Source of the DNA: Pleurocapsa minor GSE-CHR-MK 17-07R
GTDB lineage: Bacteria > Chloroflexota > Anaerolineae > Aggregatilineales > Phototrophicaceae
Assembly: GCA_019359125.1 (NCBI GenBank)
Contig: JAHHHY010000002.1
Location: 558,001-622,000, forward strand
DNA length: 64,000 nt
Reading direction: 5' to 3'
The notes beneath the pieces were generated by a model. The model had not been told where the DNA came from. It did no database searches and saw only the letters and a program-made list of their open reading frames with translations. Below, piece after piece: positions 42,002-47,288 of this stretch (the first letter of the stretch is position 1; each line of letters opens with the position of its first letter). The position numbers and the translations under genes are program-made.

Positions 42002-42667
42002 TTATTGCAGTGTGAGCAGGTAGGCGACGACGTCTTCGAGTTCCTGCGGCGTCAGCACATCGCCGAAGCCCATGGGCATATTCAGCGCCCAGGCCGGCTC
42101 GCCATCGCGCACCGGTGCGATGAAGTCCTGCGGCGCGACGATCGACGTGTGGAGATATTCGCTGGCGGTCTGGCCATCGACGCGGGTCTCGGCCTTCACG
42201 GGGATGTTCCACAGGCCGGGGCCGATCAGACGCAGCTCATCCGGGGTGATCGAATGGCACGATGCGCACGCCCAGGCAGAGCCATCGGGCAGCGTATGCT
42301 GTGCGTTAAAAACGACCTGGCCATTGGCGGGGTCACCCGCGCCAGCGGCGGCAACTTCCACCGGCGCGACCGTCGGCGGTGCGGCGACAGTCGGGGGCAG
42401 CGGGGTGGCCGTGGGCGGCAGCGGCGTCGCGGTCGGCGGAACAGGTGTCGCGGTCGGGGGAATCGGCGTTGGGGTGTTGGTGGGCGGCAGCGGCGTCGCG
42501 GTGGGCGCCTCGGCGGTGAGCTGGTCAGCCGTGGCGGCCAGCGCAATCTGGGTTTCCTGTACCTCAGCGGCCCACTCTGGCGTGGCGACTGAGCCGCAGC
42601 CCGAGACGACGGCCATCAGGGCAGCCGCCGATACGGTGAAAAGTCCTCTAACCAAAAGCGCGCGCAT
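42002..42667 (-). CDS. Cytochrome c lipoprotein with Pro/Thr-rich linker
   Basis: A 221-residue membrane-anchored cytochrome. A lipoprotein signal ends at VVSGC (about residue 22). Residues about 55-105 are a PTATPLPPT-type repeat linker that projects the haem domain from the membrane. The haem is bound by CASCH (about residue 134), and a distal axial Met is in LNMPMGFGD near 195. One haem, as in class I cytochromes c used for electron delivery to oxidases. The start at 42667 (MRALLVRG) gives a proper signal; the in-frame start at 42784 lies upstream of the promoter. The linker is encoded by 18-bp DNA repeats. Confidence 0.88.
   Translation of the reverse strand: MRALLVRGLFTVSAAALMAVVSGCGSVATPEWAAEVQETQIALAATADQLTAEAPTATPLPPTNTPTPIPPTATPVPPTATPLPPTATPLPPTVAAPPTVAPVEVAAAGAGDPANGQVVFNAQHTLPDGSAWACASCHSITPDELRLIGPGLWNIPVKAETRVDGQTASEYLHTSIVAPQDFIAPVRDGEPAWALNMPMGFGDVLTPQELEDVVAYLLTLQ
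42394..42501. repeat. Imperfect tandem repeats encoding the cytochrome linker
   Basis: About six imperfect copies of an 18-bp unit (GGCGGCAGCGGCGTCGCG-like on the plus strand) encode the PTATPLPPT linker of the cytochrome c lipoprotein. The unit keeps the reading frame, so copy-number change would alter linker length without a frameshift. Confidence 0.7.
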
Positions 42668-42720
42668 GCGGGGATTCTCCGAACTGACATAAGTGTTTGT
42701 GCAAAGGTGAACAATTGGGA

Positions 42721-42749
42721 AGTATAGTCTTACGCTGTCATCGTCGCAA
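42721..42749 (-). promoter_or_regulatory. Promoter of the cytochrome c gene
   Basis: On the minus strand TTGCGA (42744-42749) and TATACT (42721-42726) are separated by 17 bp. The expected start near 42714 gives a leader of about 47 nt to the ATG at 42667. Confidence 0.65.
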
Positions 42750-42836
42750 TAGTGCGCCTTTACTTTTTGGTTGTGAAAACCCACGTTTCACGATACCTTA
42801 AGGGAGCAAAATCACGCACAAGGAAATGGAATCTGC

Positions 42837-45101
42837 ATGGGTACTCTGAACCCTGATTTGCTGTCGAAAGACCTCGATAATGCCCTCAATGAGGCGGTGC
42901 TGCTGAAAGATCAGTTTCGCAAGCCGACGCTGATGCCGGAGATCATTCTGCTGGCGCTGCTGCGCACCAAAGACACGTCGGCTGCCCGCGTGCTGGAGAG
43001 TTTCCAGCAGGCCCGTGGCGTCGACCTGGCCAAGCTGGACCGGCAGACGGTGGTCGCCATCGAGACGCGCCGCGATACCGATGGCAACCTGGACTTTCCC
43101 GCGCGCGGCAATCGCATGGTGCCGCTGAGCAAGTCCGCCATCATCCTGATTGACGACGCGCTGACGCTGTCGAACTCGCGCGATGAAGTGCGCGTGGATA
43201 CCGACCATGTACTCAGCGTGCTGGCCGAAAGCACGCAAAGCACCAGCGGTATTCTGCGCCAGCAGGGCATCACGCCGAAGGCCATCAACGACCTGCTGGC
43301 TGATAATTCGCAGCTGATGCGTAAAGACACGACCACGACCGACATCGTGGCTGGCGCGAAAACCGGCCGCCTGCGCGCGGTCTATTTCCGCGAGAGCCTG
43401 CTGCGTGACATGATCAATATCCTCACGCAGTCGGTCAACCGGCATATCCTGCTGCTGGGGCCGGATGGCGTGGGCAAGCGCACGCTGGCCTACAGCCTCG
43501 CGCTGCTGATGAGCGAAGGTAAAGGCCCGAAAGGCCTGACCAGCCTGGTGACGATCGACGAGACGGCGTTGCTGGACAGCGACCAGAAGGCGGTGCGCGC
43601 TGGCATGAATCAGGCACGCGGCGGTGTGCTGTTCGTGCCGCATCTGCATCGCTTCTTTGGCGGGGCGCTGCGGGCGGAATTCTCCAAGGCGACACCGCTG
43701 CTTCAGAAAGCGTTCCTGGAGGATGACCCGGTCATCATCGGCACGACGACCGAGCAGGAATACAACCAGCGCCTCGCCAATGTGACCGCTGTGGCCGAGC
43801 ATGCCCAGATCCTGCGCGTGCCCGAGGCCACGCCTGAGGAATCGCTGGAAATCCTGAAGGTGCTGCGCCCGCATCTGGAGAGCGATTACGACCTGAAGAT
43901 CACCGACGAGGCGCTGACCGTGACCGCGCGCCTGGCCAAGCGTTACCTGGGCACGATGCCCCTGCCGCGCAGCGCCGAACACCTGATGCATCGTGCCGCT
44001 GCGATGGTCACCATGAGCCGCCAGAATCCGCACAGCTTCAGGACCGGCACGCCGCCCCCGCCGCCGGAGGATCCCGCAGACAAGGTGCTGGATGCCGAGG
44101 ATATCACGCTGGCCGCCAGTCAGATGACCGGCGTGCCGGTCAGCAAGCTGGGCGAAGATGAACGTGCCCGTTATGCCAGTATGGTGGAGTACCTGAAAGA
44201 GCGCCTGATCGGGCAGGATGCGGCGATGCTGGCCGTCAGCCGCGCCATCAAGACCGCGCGCGTGGGCCTGAAAGACCCACGCAGGCCGATTGGCGCGTTC
44301 CTGTTCCTGGGCCCGACGGGCGTCGGCAAGACCGAGCTGTCGCGCGCGCTGGCGGAATTTATGTTTGGCAGCGAAGACGCGATGCTGGCGCTCGATATGT
44401 CCGAATTTAAGGACGAGTCCAGCCTGAACCGTTTGATCGGCAGCCCCAGCGGCTACGTCGACAGCGAGGCCGGCGGCCAGCTCACCGAACGCGTCAAGCA
44501 GCAGCCGTATATCATCGTGCTGTTTGACGAGGTGGAGAAGGCGCATCCGCGCATCATGGACATCCTCTTGCAGGTGATCGAGGAAGGCCGCCTGACGGAC
44601 GGGCGCGGCAACACGACCAATTTCAGCGAGACGGTCATCATCCTGACCAGCAACCTGGGCTCCGAGAGCCTGGCCGTGCCGGTCATCACCGATGAGGTGC
44701 GCGAGGAAGCGATGGAGGAAGTGCGCACCTGGTTCCGCCCTGAATTCCTCAATCGTCTCGATGAAGTCATCATGTTTAACGCGCTGTCCAACGACGATCT
44801 GGGCGCGATTCTGCGCCTGCTGCTGAAGAAAGAGGTCAAGCTGGGGGCCGAGCGCGGCCTGAAGCTGGACTTCACCGATGCTGCCGTCACGTGGATGCTG
44901 GCGCAGAACGACGAGCCGGAATATGGGGCGCGCCCGCTGCGGCGCATCATCCGCCGGAATGTGCGCGAGCCGCTGGCGGATTTTCTGCTGCGCGCTAATC
45001 CGCCGGCGGGCACGGCTGTCAAAATCGATTCGCCCAATGGCACCCATCTGACGTTTTCGGCCATCATCGATGGCAAGGAAGTGAGCGTGGGCGCGGGCTG
45101 A
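42837..45101 (+). CDS. Clp/ClpB-family AAA+ ATPase with degenerate first nucleotide-binding domain
   Basis: A 754-residue two-domain Hsp100 protein. Residues 1-150 form a Clp N-domain. NBD1 (about 175-395) keeps a Walker A-like GPDGVGKR (208-215), but Walker B reads LFVPHLH (265-271) instead of hhhhDEIH, the arginine-finger region (AEHAQILRVPE) lacks Arg, and no aromatic pore loop is visible. NBD2 (about 455-670) is complete: GPTGVGKT 492-499, VLFDEVEKAH, TSNLGS and FRPEFLNRLDE. There is no coiled-coil middle domain as in ClpB and no ClpP-binding GF loop. It is probably an unfoldase driven by NBD2 alone. Divergent from the cytochrome gene. Confidence 0.88.
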   Translation: MGTLNPDLLSKDLDNALNEAVLLKDQFRKPTLMPEIILLALLRTKDTSAARVLESFQQARGVDLAKLDRQTVVAIETRRDTDGNLDFPARGNRMVPLSKSAIILIDDALTLSNSRDEVRVDTDHVLSVLAESTQSTSGILRQQGITPKAINDLLADNSQLMRKDTTTTDIVAGAKTGRLRAVYFRESLLRDMINILTQSVNRHILLLGPDGVGKRTLAYSLALLMSEGKGPKGLTSLVTIDETALLDSDQKAVRAGMNQARGGVLFVPHLHRFFGGALRAEFSKATPLLQKAFLEDDPVIIGTTTEQEYNQRLANVTAVAEHAQILRVPEATPEESLEILKVLRPHLESDYDLKITDEALTVTARLAKRYLGTMPLPRSAEHLMHRAAAMVTMSRQNPHSFRTGTPPPPPEDPADKVLDAEDITLAASQMTGVPVSKLGEDERARYASMVEYLKERLIGQDAAMLAVSRAIKTARVGLKDPRRPIGAFLFLGPTGVGKTELSRALAEFMFGSEDAMLALDMSEFKDESSLNRLIGSPSGYVDSEAGGQLTERVKQQPYIIVLFDEVEKAHPRIMDILLQVIEEGRLTDGRGNTTNFSETVIILTSNLGSESLAVPVITDEVREEAMEEVRTWFRPEFLNRLDEVIMFNALSNDDLGAILRLLLKKEVKLGAERGLKLDFTDAAVTWMLAQNDEPEYGARPLRRIIRRNVREPLADFLLRANPPAGTAVKIDSPNGTHLTFSAIIDGKEVSVGAG

Positions 45102-45128
45102 TCCTTCCCGTGCGCGCCAGATGCAGGG

Positions 45129-45157
45129 TTGACACCCGCCTGTGATGCCAACACAAT
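45129..45157 (+). promoter_or_regulatory. Promoter of the phosphohexomutase gene
   Basis: Consensus TTGACA (45129-45134) and CACAAT (45152-45157) are 17 bp apart, with the start expected near 45164 and the ATG at 45203. Confidence 0.58.
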
Positions 45158-45202
45158 CGCCCCATGCTGTCAGGCATTGGACCGACCAGAAACGAGGAAA
45201 CA

Positions 45203-46624
45203 ATGACCGAAGTCAATGCGACGATTTTCCGTAAATACGATATCCGCGGCACGGCCGTGGGCGATGACGCCCAGCTCACCCCGACACTGGCACTCCTCGT
45301 GGGCAAGGGACTGGGGACTTATTTGCCCACAGCGTTTGGCACCGAACGCGTGTTTGTGGGCCGCGACAACCGCCTGACGTCGCCCGCGCTGCATGCCGCC
45401 ATGATCGAAGGCCTGCTCTCCACCGGCATGGCCGTGACCGATATTGGCGAGTCCATCACGCCGACGGTGTATTACGCCGCAGCCAGCTATGGCAGCAAGG
45501 GCGCCGGCGTACAGATCACCGGCAGCCACCTGACCACAAAATACAACGGCATCAAGATGAGCTATGGCTCACTGGCGCTGTTTGACCAGCAGATTCAGGA
45601 CGTGCTGAAGCTCATCCAGACGGATGCATTTACCGTGGGGCAGGGCGTGCTGTCGCAGGATTTCGACCTGGTCAACCGGCACATGGCGCGTATCCAGGGC
45701 ATGGTGACGCTGGCCAAGCCGATGAAGGTCGTGCTGGATGCCGGCAATGGCCTGATCGGCGGCATCTTCCCGCAGGTGCTGCGCAACCTGGGCTGTGAGG
45801 TCGTTGAGCTGTATACCGAGAGCGACGGCACCTATCCCAATCACCTGCCGAACCCGGAAGACCCGGAGATGACCAAAGACCTGGAGGCCAAAGTCATCGA
45901 GACGGGCGCGGACATCGGCCTGGCGTTTGACGGCGACAGTGACCGCTGCGGCTTCATCGATGAGCACGGGCACCATATCGCGGCCGACCGCCTGCTGGCG
46001 ATTCTGGCGCGTGATGTGCTGACGCGCATCCCCGGCGCGACGATTGTATATGACGTGAAATGTTCGCAGGCCCTGCCGGACATCATCCGCCAGCATGGCG
46101 GCGTGCCCGTCATGTGGAAGACCGGGCACAGCCTGATGAAGCAGAAAATTGCCGAGCTGGGTAGCCCACTGGGCGGCGAGGTGAGCGGGCATCTGTTCAC
46201 GGGTGAGAATTACTATGGCTTTGACGACGCGCCGCTGGTAGCGCTGCGCGCCTTGCAGGTGTTCTCGCAGACCGACAAGACGGTGAGCGAGATTTTTGCC
46301 GAGCTGCCGCAGTTAGAGGCGACGCCGGAGATTATCCTGCCCGCGCCGGACCACCTGAAATTCCAGATTATCGAGGACATCACGAAGGCGCTGGACGAGA
46401 CCTACGAGGTGTTCACGCTGGACGGCGCGAGGGCGCAGTTTGAAAACGGCTGGGGGGTGGTGCGCGCCAGCAATACCCAGCCCGCCGTGACGCTGCGCTT
46501 TGAAGCGTATACCGCGCCCGACCTGGTGAAGTATATGAACCTGTTCAAGGCGCAGCTGGACAAGTATCCCGAAGTGGATACCACGATCTTGCAGGGGCAC
46601 ATCCGTAATTTCAGCGCGAAGGGA
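45203..46624 (+). CDS. Phosphomannomutase/phosphoglucomutase family protein
   Basis: A 474-residue alpha-D-phosphohexomutase. The phosphoserine loop reads QITGSHLTTKYNG (Ser108; TGSH in place of the commoner TASH). The metal loop is DGDSDR (243-248; one G to S change from DGDGDR), the sugar loop is GGEVSGH, and the phosphate-binding end is RASNTQPAVTLRFEA. This is the ManB/AlgC architecture interconverting hexose-6- and 1-phosphates, which would feed glgC and glycosyltransferases. The ATG at 45203 has a GAGGA site. The specificity for glucose or mannose cannot be settled. Confidence 0.9.
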
Positions 46625-46690: not shown

Positions 46691-47254
46691 TTATTCCTCG
46701 AACAGCGAGGCCACATTCACGCTGAAGCCGGGCAGGGTGTCGCCAGCGTCCAGCGTGTCTTCGGCTGTCAGGATATCGGCGCTGCCATCCGCACGATAGA
46801 CCTCGACCAGACGTTTACGCGGTAGGGCGATCCACACGAGCTGTACCCCGTGTGCAATCAGCCATGCTGCTTTTTCGCGCATGCGCGGCAGGCTGTCATC
46901 CGGCGACTGCACCTCGACAGCGATGTCGGGCAGTTGGGTGGCCGCGCCACGGGTGACTATGGGTTGCAGGCGTTCGGCACGGGTAAAGGCTACGTCGGGT
47001 TGGCGAACGTTGTGCAGGTCATTGACAGACCGATACCAGACATACAGCACGGTGCGCCCAAGTTTCTCCGGCGAAGCAAAACTGCTCAACGCGGTGCCGA
47101 TTGTGCAGGCAATCACGCTCATTTCTTCGGTATTCTCCCGGGACACCACATTCCCGTTCACAAGTTCAAAGAACCTATCCTGGTTTTCGGGGCGCGACAC
47201 GAACGCTTCGAAGTCGTCAATAGTCATCGGCTCCGTGATGGGCGTGACCATCAT
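46691..47254 (-). CDS. Uma2-family (DUF820) PD-(D/E)XK protein
   Basis: A 188-residue protein of the Uma2/DUF820 family, which is expanded in cyanobacteria and Chloroflexota. The restriction-fold active site is visible: Asp in VRQPDVAF, Glu in IAVEVQSPDDS and Lys in MREKAAWLIAHG, with the usual VQLVWI strand after it. The N-terminus has the typical MTIDDFEAF and FELVNG segments. The biological function of the family is not established. The ATG at 47254 has a GGAGA site, and a second ATG follows directly. It lies 34 nt downstream of the GT4 gene on the same strand. Confidence 0.85.
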   Translation of the reverse strand: MMVTPITEPMTIDDFEAFVSRPENQDRFFELVNGNVVSRENTEEMSVIACTIGTALSSFASPEKLGRTVLYVWYRSVNDLHNVRQPDVAFTRAERLQPIVTRGAATQLPDIAVEVQSPDDSLPRMREKAAWLIAHGVQLVWIALPRKRLVEVYRADGSADILTAEDTLDAGDTLPGFSVNVASLFEE

Positions 47255-47288
47255 GATTCTCCAGACATCCAACGCTTATAAGTATACG

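Follow-up and report, generated by a model that had tools for sequence, protein, structure and literature searches.

The window analysed here is a 64,000-nucleotide stretch of the genome of Pleurocapsa minor GSE-CHR-MK 17-07R (GTDB lineage Chloroflexota; Anaerolineae; Aggregatilineales; Phototrophicaceae; assembly GCA_019359125.1, contig JAHHHY010000002.1, positions 558,001 to 622,000 of the forward strand), within which a gene of the Hsp100/Clp family encodes a protein with two nucleotide-binding domains (NBD1 and NBD2), the first of which has lost its catalytic motifs. A sequence-only reading had proposed a distinct Hsp100 subtype in which NBD1 is a scaffold. The homologues gathered here form an unnamed Hsp100 subfamily, so far seen only in Chloroflexota, one doubtfully named record apart. 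The gene and its domains are laid out as follows.

42837..45101, + strand: Hsp100/Clp family gene, 754 amino acids (aa), ATG start; N-domain, dead NBD1, short linker, active-looking NBD2
42837..43316, + strand: N-domain, residues 1-160; helical, a divergent Clp_N (PF02861, two stretches)
43329..44018, + strand: NBD1, residues 165-394; confidently predicted AAA+ fold without the catalytic motifs
44019..44141, + strand: Pro-rich short linker between NBD1 and NBD2, residues 395-435, in the place of the middle domain (M-domain)
44142..45041, + strand: NBD2, residues 436-735; AAA+ motifs intact

Domain layout and motif content

Matches above the Pfam cut-offs comprise Clp_N (PF02861), AAA_lid_9 (PF17871), AAA_2 and ClpB_D2-small (identifiers include PF07724 and PF10431). 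Together with the PDB matches and the predicted fold, these give the Hsp100/Clp class I layout of an N-domain, two Hsp100-type AAA+ domains and a ClpB_D2-small C-terminal domain; the Walker A and Walker B motifs that define the class in both NBDs are, however, lacking in NBD1. A phmmer comparison with Escherichia coli ClpB (chain u107661) aligned residues 136-394 as NBD1 and 415-731 as NBD2. The best solved relatives are chains of ClpB, ClpC, Hsp104 and ClpA, against which NBD2 scores high and NBD1 more weakly (308 and 69 bits, respectively, with the top PDB chain, a ClpB/ClpA hybrid). None of the seven listed NCBIfam Hsp100 models reaches its cut-off for the 754-aa protein, in a comparison that covered the best 25 of 67 families and had no ClpL model among those 25. 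The protein scored 488.9 against a cut-off of 1232.1 for the ClpB equivalog TIGR03346, 386.7 against 993.15 for the ClpA equivalog TIGR02639 (in one stretch, residues 10-731, nearly the whole protein), 350.3 against 884.95 for the ClpV/TssH profile, and 359 and 335.5 for ClpG and ClpK, each against 1900. An antisense open frame of 801 aa (42798-45203, - strand) spans the whole gene and is taken as a by-product of codon usage.

Homologues were gathered by similarity to residues 1-438, giving 113 distinct members besides the window copy. Four shorter fragments were dropped, so that the alignment of 110 members (the window and 109 others) holds frames of >700 aa partly by choice; because gathering was by likeness to NBD1, relatives with an intact NBD1 would be under-sampled. 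At the aligned start, 94 of the 110 members have ATG and 5 have GTG. The motif positions of NBD1 are these:

43458..43484, + strand: Walker A GPDGVGKRT, residues 208-216; the Ser/Thr after the Lys is Arg215
43560..43604, + strand: pore-loop-1 deletion site, residues 242-256; 15 residues against 24 in the four paralogues of the same genome
43629..43664, + strand: Walker B position LFVPHLHRFFGG, residues 265-276; both acids absent
43737..43763, + strand: sensor-1 region IGTTTEQEY, residues 301-309; largely retained
43785..43811, + strand: arginine-finger segment TAVAEHAQI, residues 317-325; lacks the tandem Arg pair

The HMMER alignment sets the Walker B segment VLFVPHLHRFFGG beneath ILFIDELHTMVGA of ClpB, and since VLFVPHLH thereby lies beneath the ClpB Walker B strand ILFIDELH, this is the true Walker B position, without a shift. 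The earlier observation of LFVPHLH in place of a DE-containing strand (LFIDELH in ClpB) is thus borne out by both phmmer and MAFFT. Across the alignment the Asp position is occupied by P (104 members), A (5) or S (1), and the Glu position most often by H (63), then N (16), L (14) or D (7), with E in no member and the remainder spread over a few other residues, while Arg272 and Phe273, just after the motif, are each found in 110/110. Similarly, the EH of TAVAEHAQIL is aligned beneath the RR of ClpB AALERRFQKV, so both finger arginines are lost, in agreement with the sequence-only reading of this segment. Arg occurs at the first position of the pair in 0 members and at the second in 8, and a single Arg near the segment is found in a minority (position 320 in 8, 324 in 1 and 325 in 17). 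The corresponding residues of the first AAA+ domain (AAA-1) of E. coli ClpB are E279 for Walker B and R331/R332 for the arginine fingers (PMC5319980; here and below, literature statements are given as they stand in excerpts of the cited papers). A shifted but intact Walker B or arginine finger was ruled out, as MAFFT and HMMER give the same register. R327, six residues further on and R in 85/110 members, was rejected as a finger, lying inside a predicted strand (323-327).

Two further lesions were found beyond those first reported. The Walker A Ser/Thr, which coordinates Mg in P-loop NTPases, is replaced by R in 108 members, K in 1 and Q in 1; the preceding P-loop Lys214 is K in 99/110 and R in 11/110, and the three counted P-loop glycines are present in 110/110. 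The turn bearing pore loop 1 has been lost through a 9-residue deletion, and the resulting 15-residue segment occurs in 110/110 members.

The second domain is marked by the following features:

44310..44333, + strand: NBD2 Walker A; Lys498 in 110/110, next residue T in 100 and S in 10
44451..44462, + strand: NBD2 pore loop GYVD; Tyr540 in 110/110
44520..44546, + strand: NBD2 Walker B LFDEVEKAH; Asp564 and Glu565 in 110/110
44646..44738, + strand: segment that carries the ClpP loop in ClpC/ClpA; here 31 residues, short, without a GF/GL tripeptide
44736..44765, + strand: NBD2 arginine-finger region RPEFLNRLDE; Arg640 in 110/110
44925..44945, + strand: NBD2 sensor 2 GARPLRR; Arg699 and Arg703 in 110/110

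Sensor 1 of NBD2 is present as well, so that Walker A and B, the pore-loop Tyr, both sensors and the arginine finger were all found, as the first reading had it. That reading had also noted the apparent absence of a coiled-coil M-domain and of a ClpP-docking GF loop, and both absences hold. The linker between the NBDs measures 20-46 residues across the 110 members, compared with 143 in the ClpB of the same genome (L007), 77 in a ClpC-like paralogue (L005), 77 in L004 and 25 in L002, and an [ILVMF]G[FLY] tripeptide in the ClpP-loop segment occurs in 0/110. This protein is not alone in lacking an M-domain, since L002 and several other Hsp100s of the class also have short linkers, although in these the GF loop is kept and NBD1 is intact. 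L002 itself (G000 C15:302742-305204), the nearest paralogue in the genome at 39% identity, combines a short linker with an intact NBD1 and an LGF loop, while its NCBIfam scores (670.3 for ClpA, 772.5 for ClpB) stay under both cut-offs. L183 and L185, from two class genomes (G102 and G106), represent another divergent group in which a short linker goes together with a GF loop; its pore loop reads GAS.VGEFE.R, LP[AS]EFL[SA]R replaces RPEF.NR, and it sits on a branch of 1.57 with support 100/100 in the NBD2 tree.

Conservation, predicted fold and distribution

The sequence-only reading had left room for a sporadic change in relatives; the altered Walker B and finger proved to be fixed, in all 110 aligned members as well as in L127, L175 and L188, of which L127 and L175 belong to another class and all three have the same NBD1-lost state. 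Conservation is lower in NBD1 than in NBD2 (55.6% versus 68.7% mean pairwise identity over 1500 sampled pairs), and NBD1 is under purifying selection, with ratios of nonsynonymous to synonymous substitution (dN/dS) of 0.018-0.205 in 11 pairs and saturation in the twelfth. His203, Arg215, Glu242, Arg272, Phe273, Tyr351 and Arg386 are among the residues specific to the family, each occurring in at least 105 of 110 members and absent from all four paralogues. L127 has Arg215, Phe273 and Arg386 and is without His203, Glu242, Arg272 and Tyr351. On account of the low dN/dS and the near-invariant family-specific residues, NBD1 looks like a rebuilt rather than a rotting domain.

AlphaFold2, run on an alignment of 68 members and modelling a monomer without ligand, returned a mean per-residue confidence (pLDDT) of 91.7 and a predicted template-modelling score (pTM) of 0.72, with the blocks of NBD1 mostly at 92-97. 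Chains of ClpC, ClpB and ClpA match residues 165-746 in Foldseek and VIA-align, among them 4ciu (E. coli ClpB; Z 35.0, root-mean-square deviation (rmsd) 4.5, 548 aligned) and 7uix_B (ClpA; Z 32.5, rmsd 6.0, 551 aligned). The prediction for NBD1 is thus a folded D1 module of Hsp100 type and no unrelated insert.

Trees rooted at the midpoint only were built from 37 family rows (L175, L188 and 35 rows taken from the 68 of alignment A1) and 25 other Hsp100s. The family forms one side of a single branch in both, with support 100/98 for NBD2 and 100/100 for NBD1, and none of the 25 other class Hsp100 rows falls inside it in the NBD2 tree. Both trees, together with the failed cut-offs of the seven NCBIfam models, support the earlier proposal of a distinct Hsp100 subtype. 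A sister relationship to the M-domain-less group of L002 was considered and dropped, its support in the NBD2 tree (88/81) being too weak and the grouping absent from the NBD1 tree.

Members occur in 91 of 101 related genomes (best E <=4.3e-96). In the remaining ten the best E values (1.6e-17 to 1.3e-22) are on a par with those of ordinary Hsp100s; these ten comprise all eight genomes of one family (f2), together with G042 (75% complete) and G071 (86% complete). In a class-wide sample 134 of 396 genomes match at E <=1e-30, a count of matches of which part were read. Of 400 genomes drawn phylum-wide, 7 match; six of these belong to that class, and the seventh (G665) comes from a second class, in which 2 of 41 genomes match. 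The search beyond Chloroflexota reached close relatives only: those bearing names are mostly Anaerolineae or Chloroflexi metagenome-assembled genomes, the nearest being Chloroflexi bacterium OLB15 (82%), and 57 of the 59 loci have Chloroflexota-type titles. One record titled Bacteroidetes (L055, JAPUDW010000009.1) holds a member 75% identical, among neighbours like those of Chloroflexota loci, and is probably a wrongly named genome bin. An Erysipelotrichaceae sequence (L097) was rejected as a member, with 46% identity over an NBD2 fragment.

Genome context

Besides this gene, the host genome encodes ClpB (L007, which passes TIGR03346 with 1343), the ClpC-like L005, the Hsp100s L002 and L004, and one ClpP. 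L005 is called ClpC-like from its linker and GF loop, and passes none of the listed NCBIfam cut-offs. The presence of ClpP means that the missing ClpP loop is not due to the absence of the protease.

A candidate site upstream of the start suggests that the gene may be transcribed from its own promoter:

42771..42799, + strand: candidate sigma-70-type promoter TTGTGA - 17 bp - TACCTT; weak consensus match

A stricter promoter scan did not pick up this site. Within the 110 bp preceding the start, 41 of 50 close members carry the pattern TTGNNN - 16-18 bp - TANNNT (shuffled sequences: mean 3.25, maximum 9), compared with only 14 of the 60 other members (shuffles: mean 3.22, maximum 9). The second box sometimes stands in a TTTC...TAACTT context among orthologues. 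No CIRCE element, the mark of HrcA heat-shock control, was found in the window at <=3 mismatches.

Neighbouring open reading frames (ORFs) were clustered at 83 loci of at least 6000 bases, a set formed apart from the window, L143 and shorter loci. A gene resembling the PGM_PMM gene of the window, and on that ground called phosphomannomutase-like, lies 1-4 ORFs downstream in 39 loci, and an upstream gene that we take to be glycoside-hydrolase-3-like recurs in most of 32 loci; both are found mainly in the closest lineages. A further cluster (cluster 19, five loci) is presumably glycosyltransferase-like, one of its genes with an FHA domain. Overall, the neighbours are metabolic or varied and mostly lineage-specific. 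In the window, a cytochrome c-like gene (42002-42784, - strand; Pfam Cytochrom_C), whose product begins like a lipoprotein and contains a Thr-Pro-rich spacer, runs divergently from the Hsp100 gene, its start probably being near 42670 rather than 42784, and a Uma2-family gene (putative restriction endonuclease; 46691-47272, - strand) adjoins the sugar-phosphate mutase gene.

Proposed mechanism and alternatives

Judging from motif content and from analogy with better-known machines, we consider it fairly probable that the protein unfolds substrates by threading, independently of ClpP and with NBD2 as its only motor, while NBD1 forms a dead scaffold ring. The protein would assemble into a double-ring hexamer whose N-domains recruit substrate or an adaptor. 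The NBD1 ring would neither hydrolyse ATP nor grip substrate, and would act as a collar that joins protomers and places the N-domains; in that sense NBD1 may be only a scaffold, as had been proposed. The NBD2 ring alone would consume ATP and pull the polypeptide by its Tyr pore loops, and substrate would be released for refolding rather than passed into ClpP. Because there is no M-domain, a DnaK dependence of the ClpB kind would not be expected. The place of nucleotide as structural core or subunit contact may have been taken by Arg215 and Arg272-Phe273, perhaps together with Glu242.

The analogy draws on ClpB mutants and on the eukaryotic type II AAA+ proteins Pex1/Pex6. ClpB with D1 Walker B or arginine-finger mutations retains some disaggregase activity (PMC6862443), its second domain (AAA-2) has been put forward as the main motor of threading (PMC5319980), and the D1 ring of Pex1/Pex6 is catalytically dead and ATP-bound while D2 threads (PMC10518020); together these suggest NBD2-only threading over a scaffold NBD1. 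The likeness to Pex1/Pex6 (PMC10518020, PMC6862443), a degenerate, non-hydrolysing D1 ring over an active D2 ring, is one of working and not of family membership, as Pex1/Pex6 belong to another AAA+ clade, form a heterohexamer and have a D1 reported as ATP-bound, whereas the protein described here also lacks the Walker A Ser/Thr and has an NBD1 of Hsp100 type.

With ClpB/Hsp104 the protein shares an N-domain, two AAA+ domains, the NBD2 motifs and the absence of a ClpP loop (NBD2 against the ClpB C-terminal domain 4fcv_A: Z 35.3, rmsd 2.4, 307 aligned), but it lacks the M-domain, the NBD1 Walker B acids, the arginine-finger pair and pore loop 1. Like ClpA/ClpC it is a two-AAA+ Hsp100, and its nearest paralogue in the genome has a short linker and a GF loop, yet it differs from them in having no ClpP loop and a dead NBD1. 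Human CLPB/SKD3, a disaggregase in which an ankyrin domain precedes a single C-terminal NBD (PMC9934407), likewise has one active AAA+ ring, and this matches NBD2 (7us2_A: Z 32.1, rmsd 3.0, 322 aligned); here, in contrast, a folded, dead NBD1 is kept. The plant SMXL/D53 proteins are atypical Hsp100-like proteins without an IGF/L motif (PMC9133912), but according to that source they are regulators with an M domain, an EAR motif and Walker A and B in both domains, and their sequence link to this protein is distant (PDB 9kkx, E 8.5e-07, best stretch in NBD2).

How the NBD1 ring would be held together admits two versions. It may have given up nucleotide altogether, a reading somewhat less likely than not, with Arg215 and Arg272-Phe273 filling the site and taking over the role of ATP in assembly, so that the ring would form without nucleotide in NBD1 and all force would come from NBD2. 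Alternatively, though this is rather doubtful, NBD1 could be dead in hydrolysis while permanently binding ATP as a structural cofactor, as in the D1 of Pex1/Pex6, so that the ring would need ATP; this version shares the dead-scaffold core with the NBD2-driven reading above, so that their probabilities overlap. An ATP-bound NBD1 would accord with the inactive, ATP-bound D1 ring of Pex1/Pex6 and with the retained P-loop, in which the glycines are invariant, Lys214 is kept in 99/110 members with Arg in the other 11, and with a mostly kept sensor-1 region. It is harder to reconcile with Arg in 108/110 members at the Mg-coordinating Ser/Thr position, with the loss of both Walker B acids and of the finger pair, and with the replacement of the Lys itself in the 11 members.

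An unlikely alternative is that the protein is a regulatory subunit which co-assembles into mixed hexamers with a second Hsp100 from its own cell (for example of the L002 type or ClpC-like), tuning it or uncoupling it from ClpP, much as Pex1 pairs with Pex6. Potential partners exist, since the genome has four other genes for two-NBD Hsp100s, the nearest being the short-linkered L002 (39%), and each of the 91 member genomes has at least two NBD1 matches (in G033, two of four are pieces of the member). Against this, NBD2 is intact in 110/110 members, arginine finger and Tyr pore loop included, as expected of a self-sufficient motor, the NBD1 finger segment is unlike those of the four paralogues, and no second Hsp100 gene was spotted among the neighbouring ORFs that were read. 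Decay or sequencing error, by which a pseudogene-like Hsp100 would be losing its first domain, might explain why so many motif losses fall in one, less conserved domain, but is refuted by the conservation of identical losses in 110/110 members, by the invariant R272-F273 and by the dN/dS range of NBD1, and is exceedingly improbable.

Several observations weigh against an NBD2-driven machine with a dead scaffold NBD1. E. coli ClpB AAA-1 mutants in Walker A show oligomerisation defects, and those in the arginine fingers show oligomerisation defects and a complete loss of disaggregation (PMC5319980), the latter in conflict with the milder statement in PMC6862443; given these defects, the family would have to assemble in another way. 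The persistence of K214 and the P-loop glycines means that NBD1 might still bind nucleotide. L127 has P and Q at the positions of Glu242 and Arg272, which weakens the role proposed for these residues. The NBD1 tree came with a long-branch warning, and no functional partner shared by distant loci was found, the neighbours there having mostly failed to cluster.

Among the matches listed from the open-licence literature, we recognised no paper describing a Chloroflexota Hsp100 with a dead NBD1, and found no description of a bacterial Hsp100 with a dead first ring. Dead first rings are already known in eukaryotic AAA+ machines; what we call new here is the unnamed bacterial Hsp100 subfamily. The curated profiles compared do not name it, and we expect that automatic annotation may label its members ClpB or ClpC.

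The family provides a naturally occurring case in which to test what an Hsp100 gains from its first motor ring. The roles of the rings have so far been studied by mutating NBD1 of ClpB, where some mutants fail to assemble (PMC5319980), whereas in these bacteria evolution has made a comparable NBD1 mutant and retained it under selection, with the domain rebuilt. The protein is thus suited to asking whether NBD2 alone can thread, and what holds the ring together when NBD1 cannot work on ATP. A further question is why some bacteria keep such a machine beside an ordinary ClpB and ClpC-like proteins.

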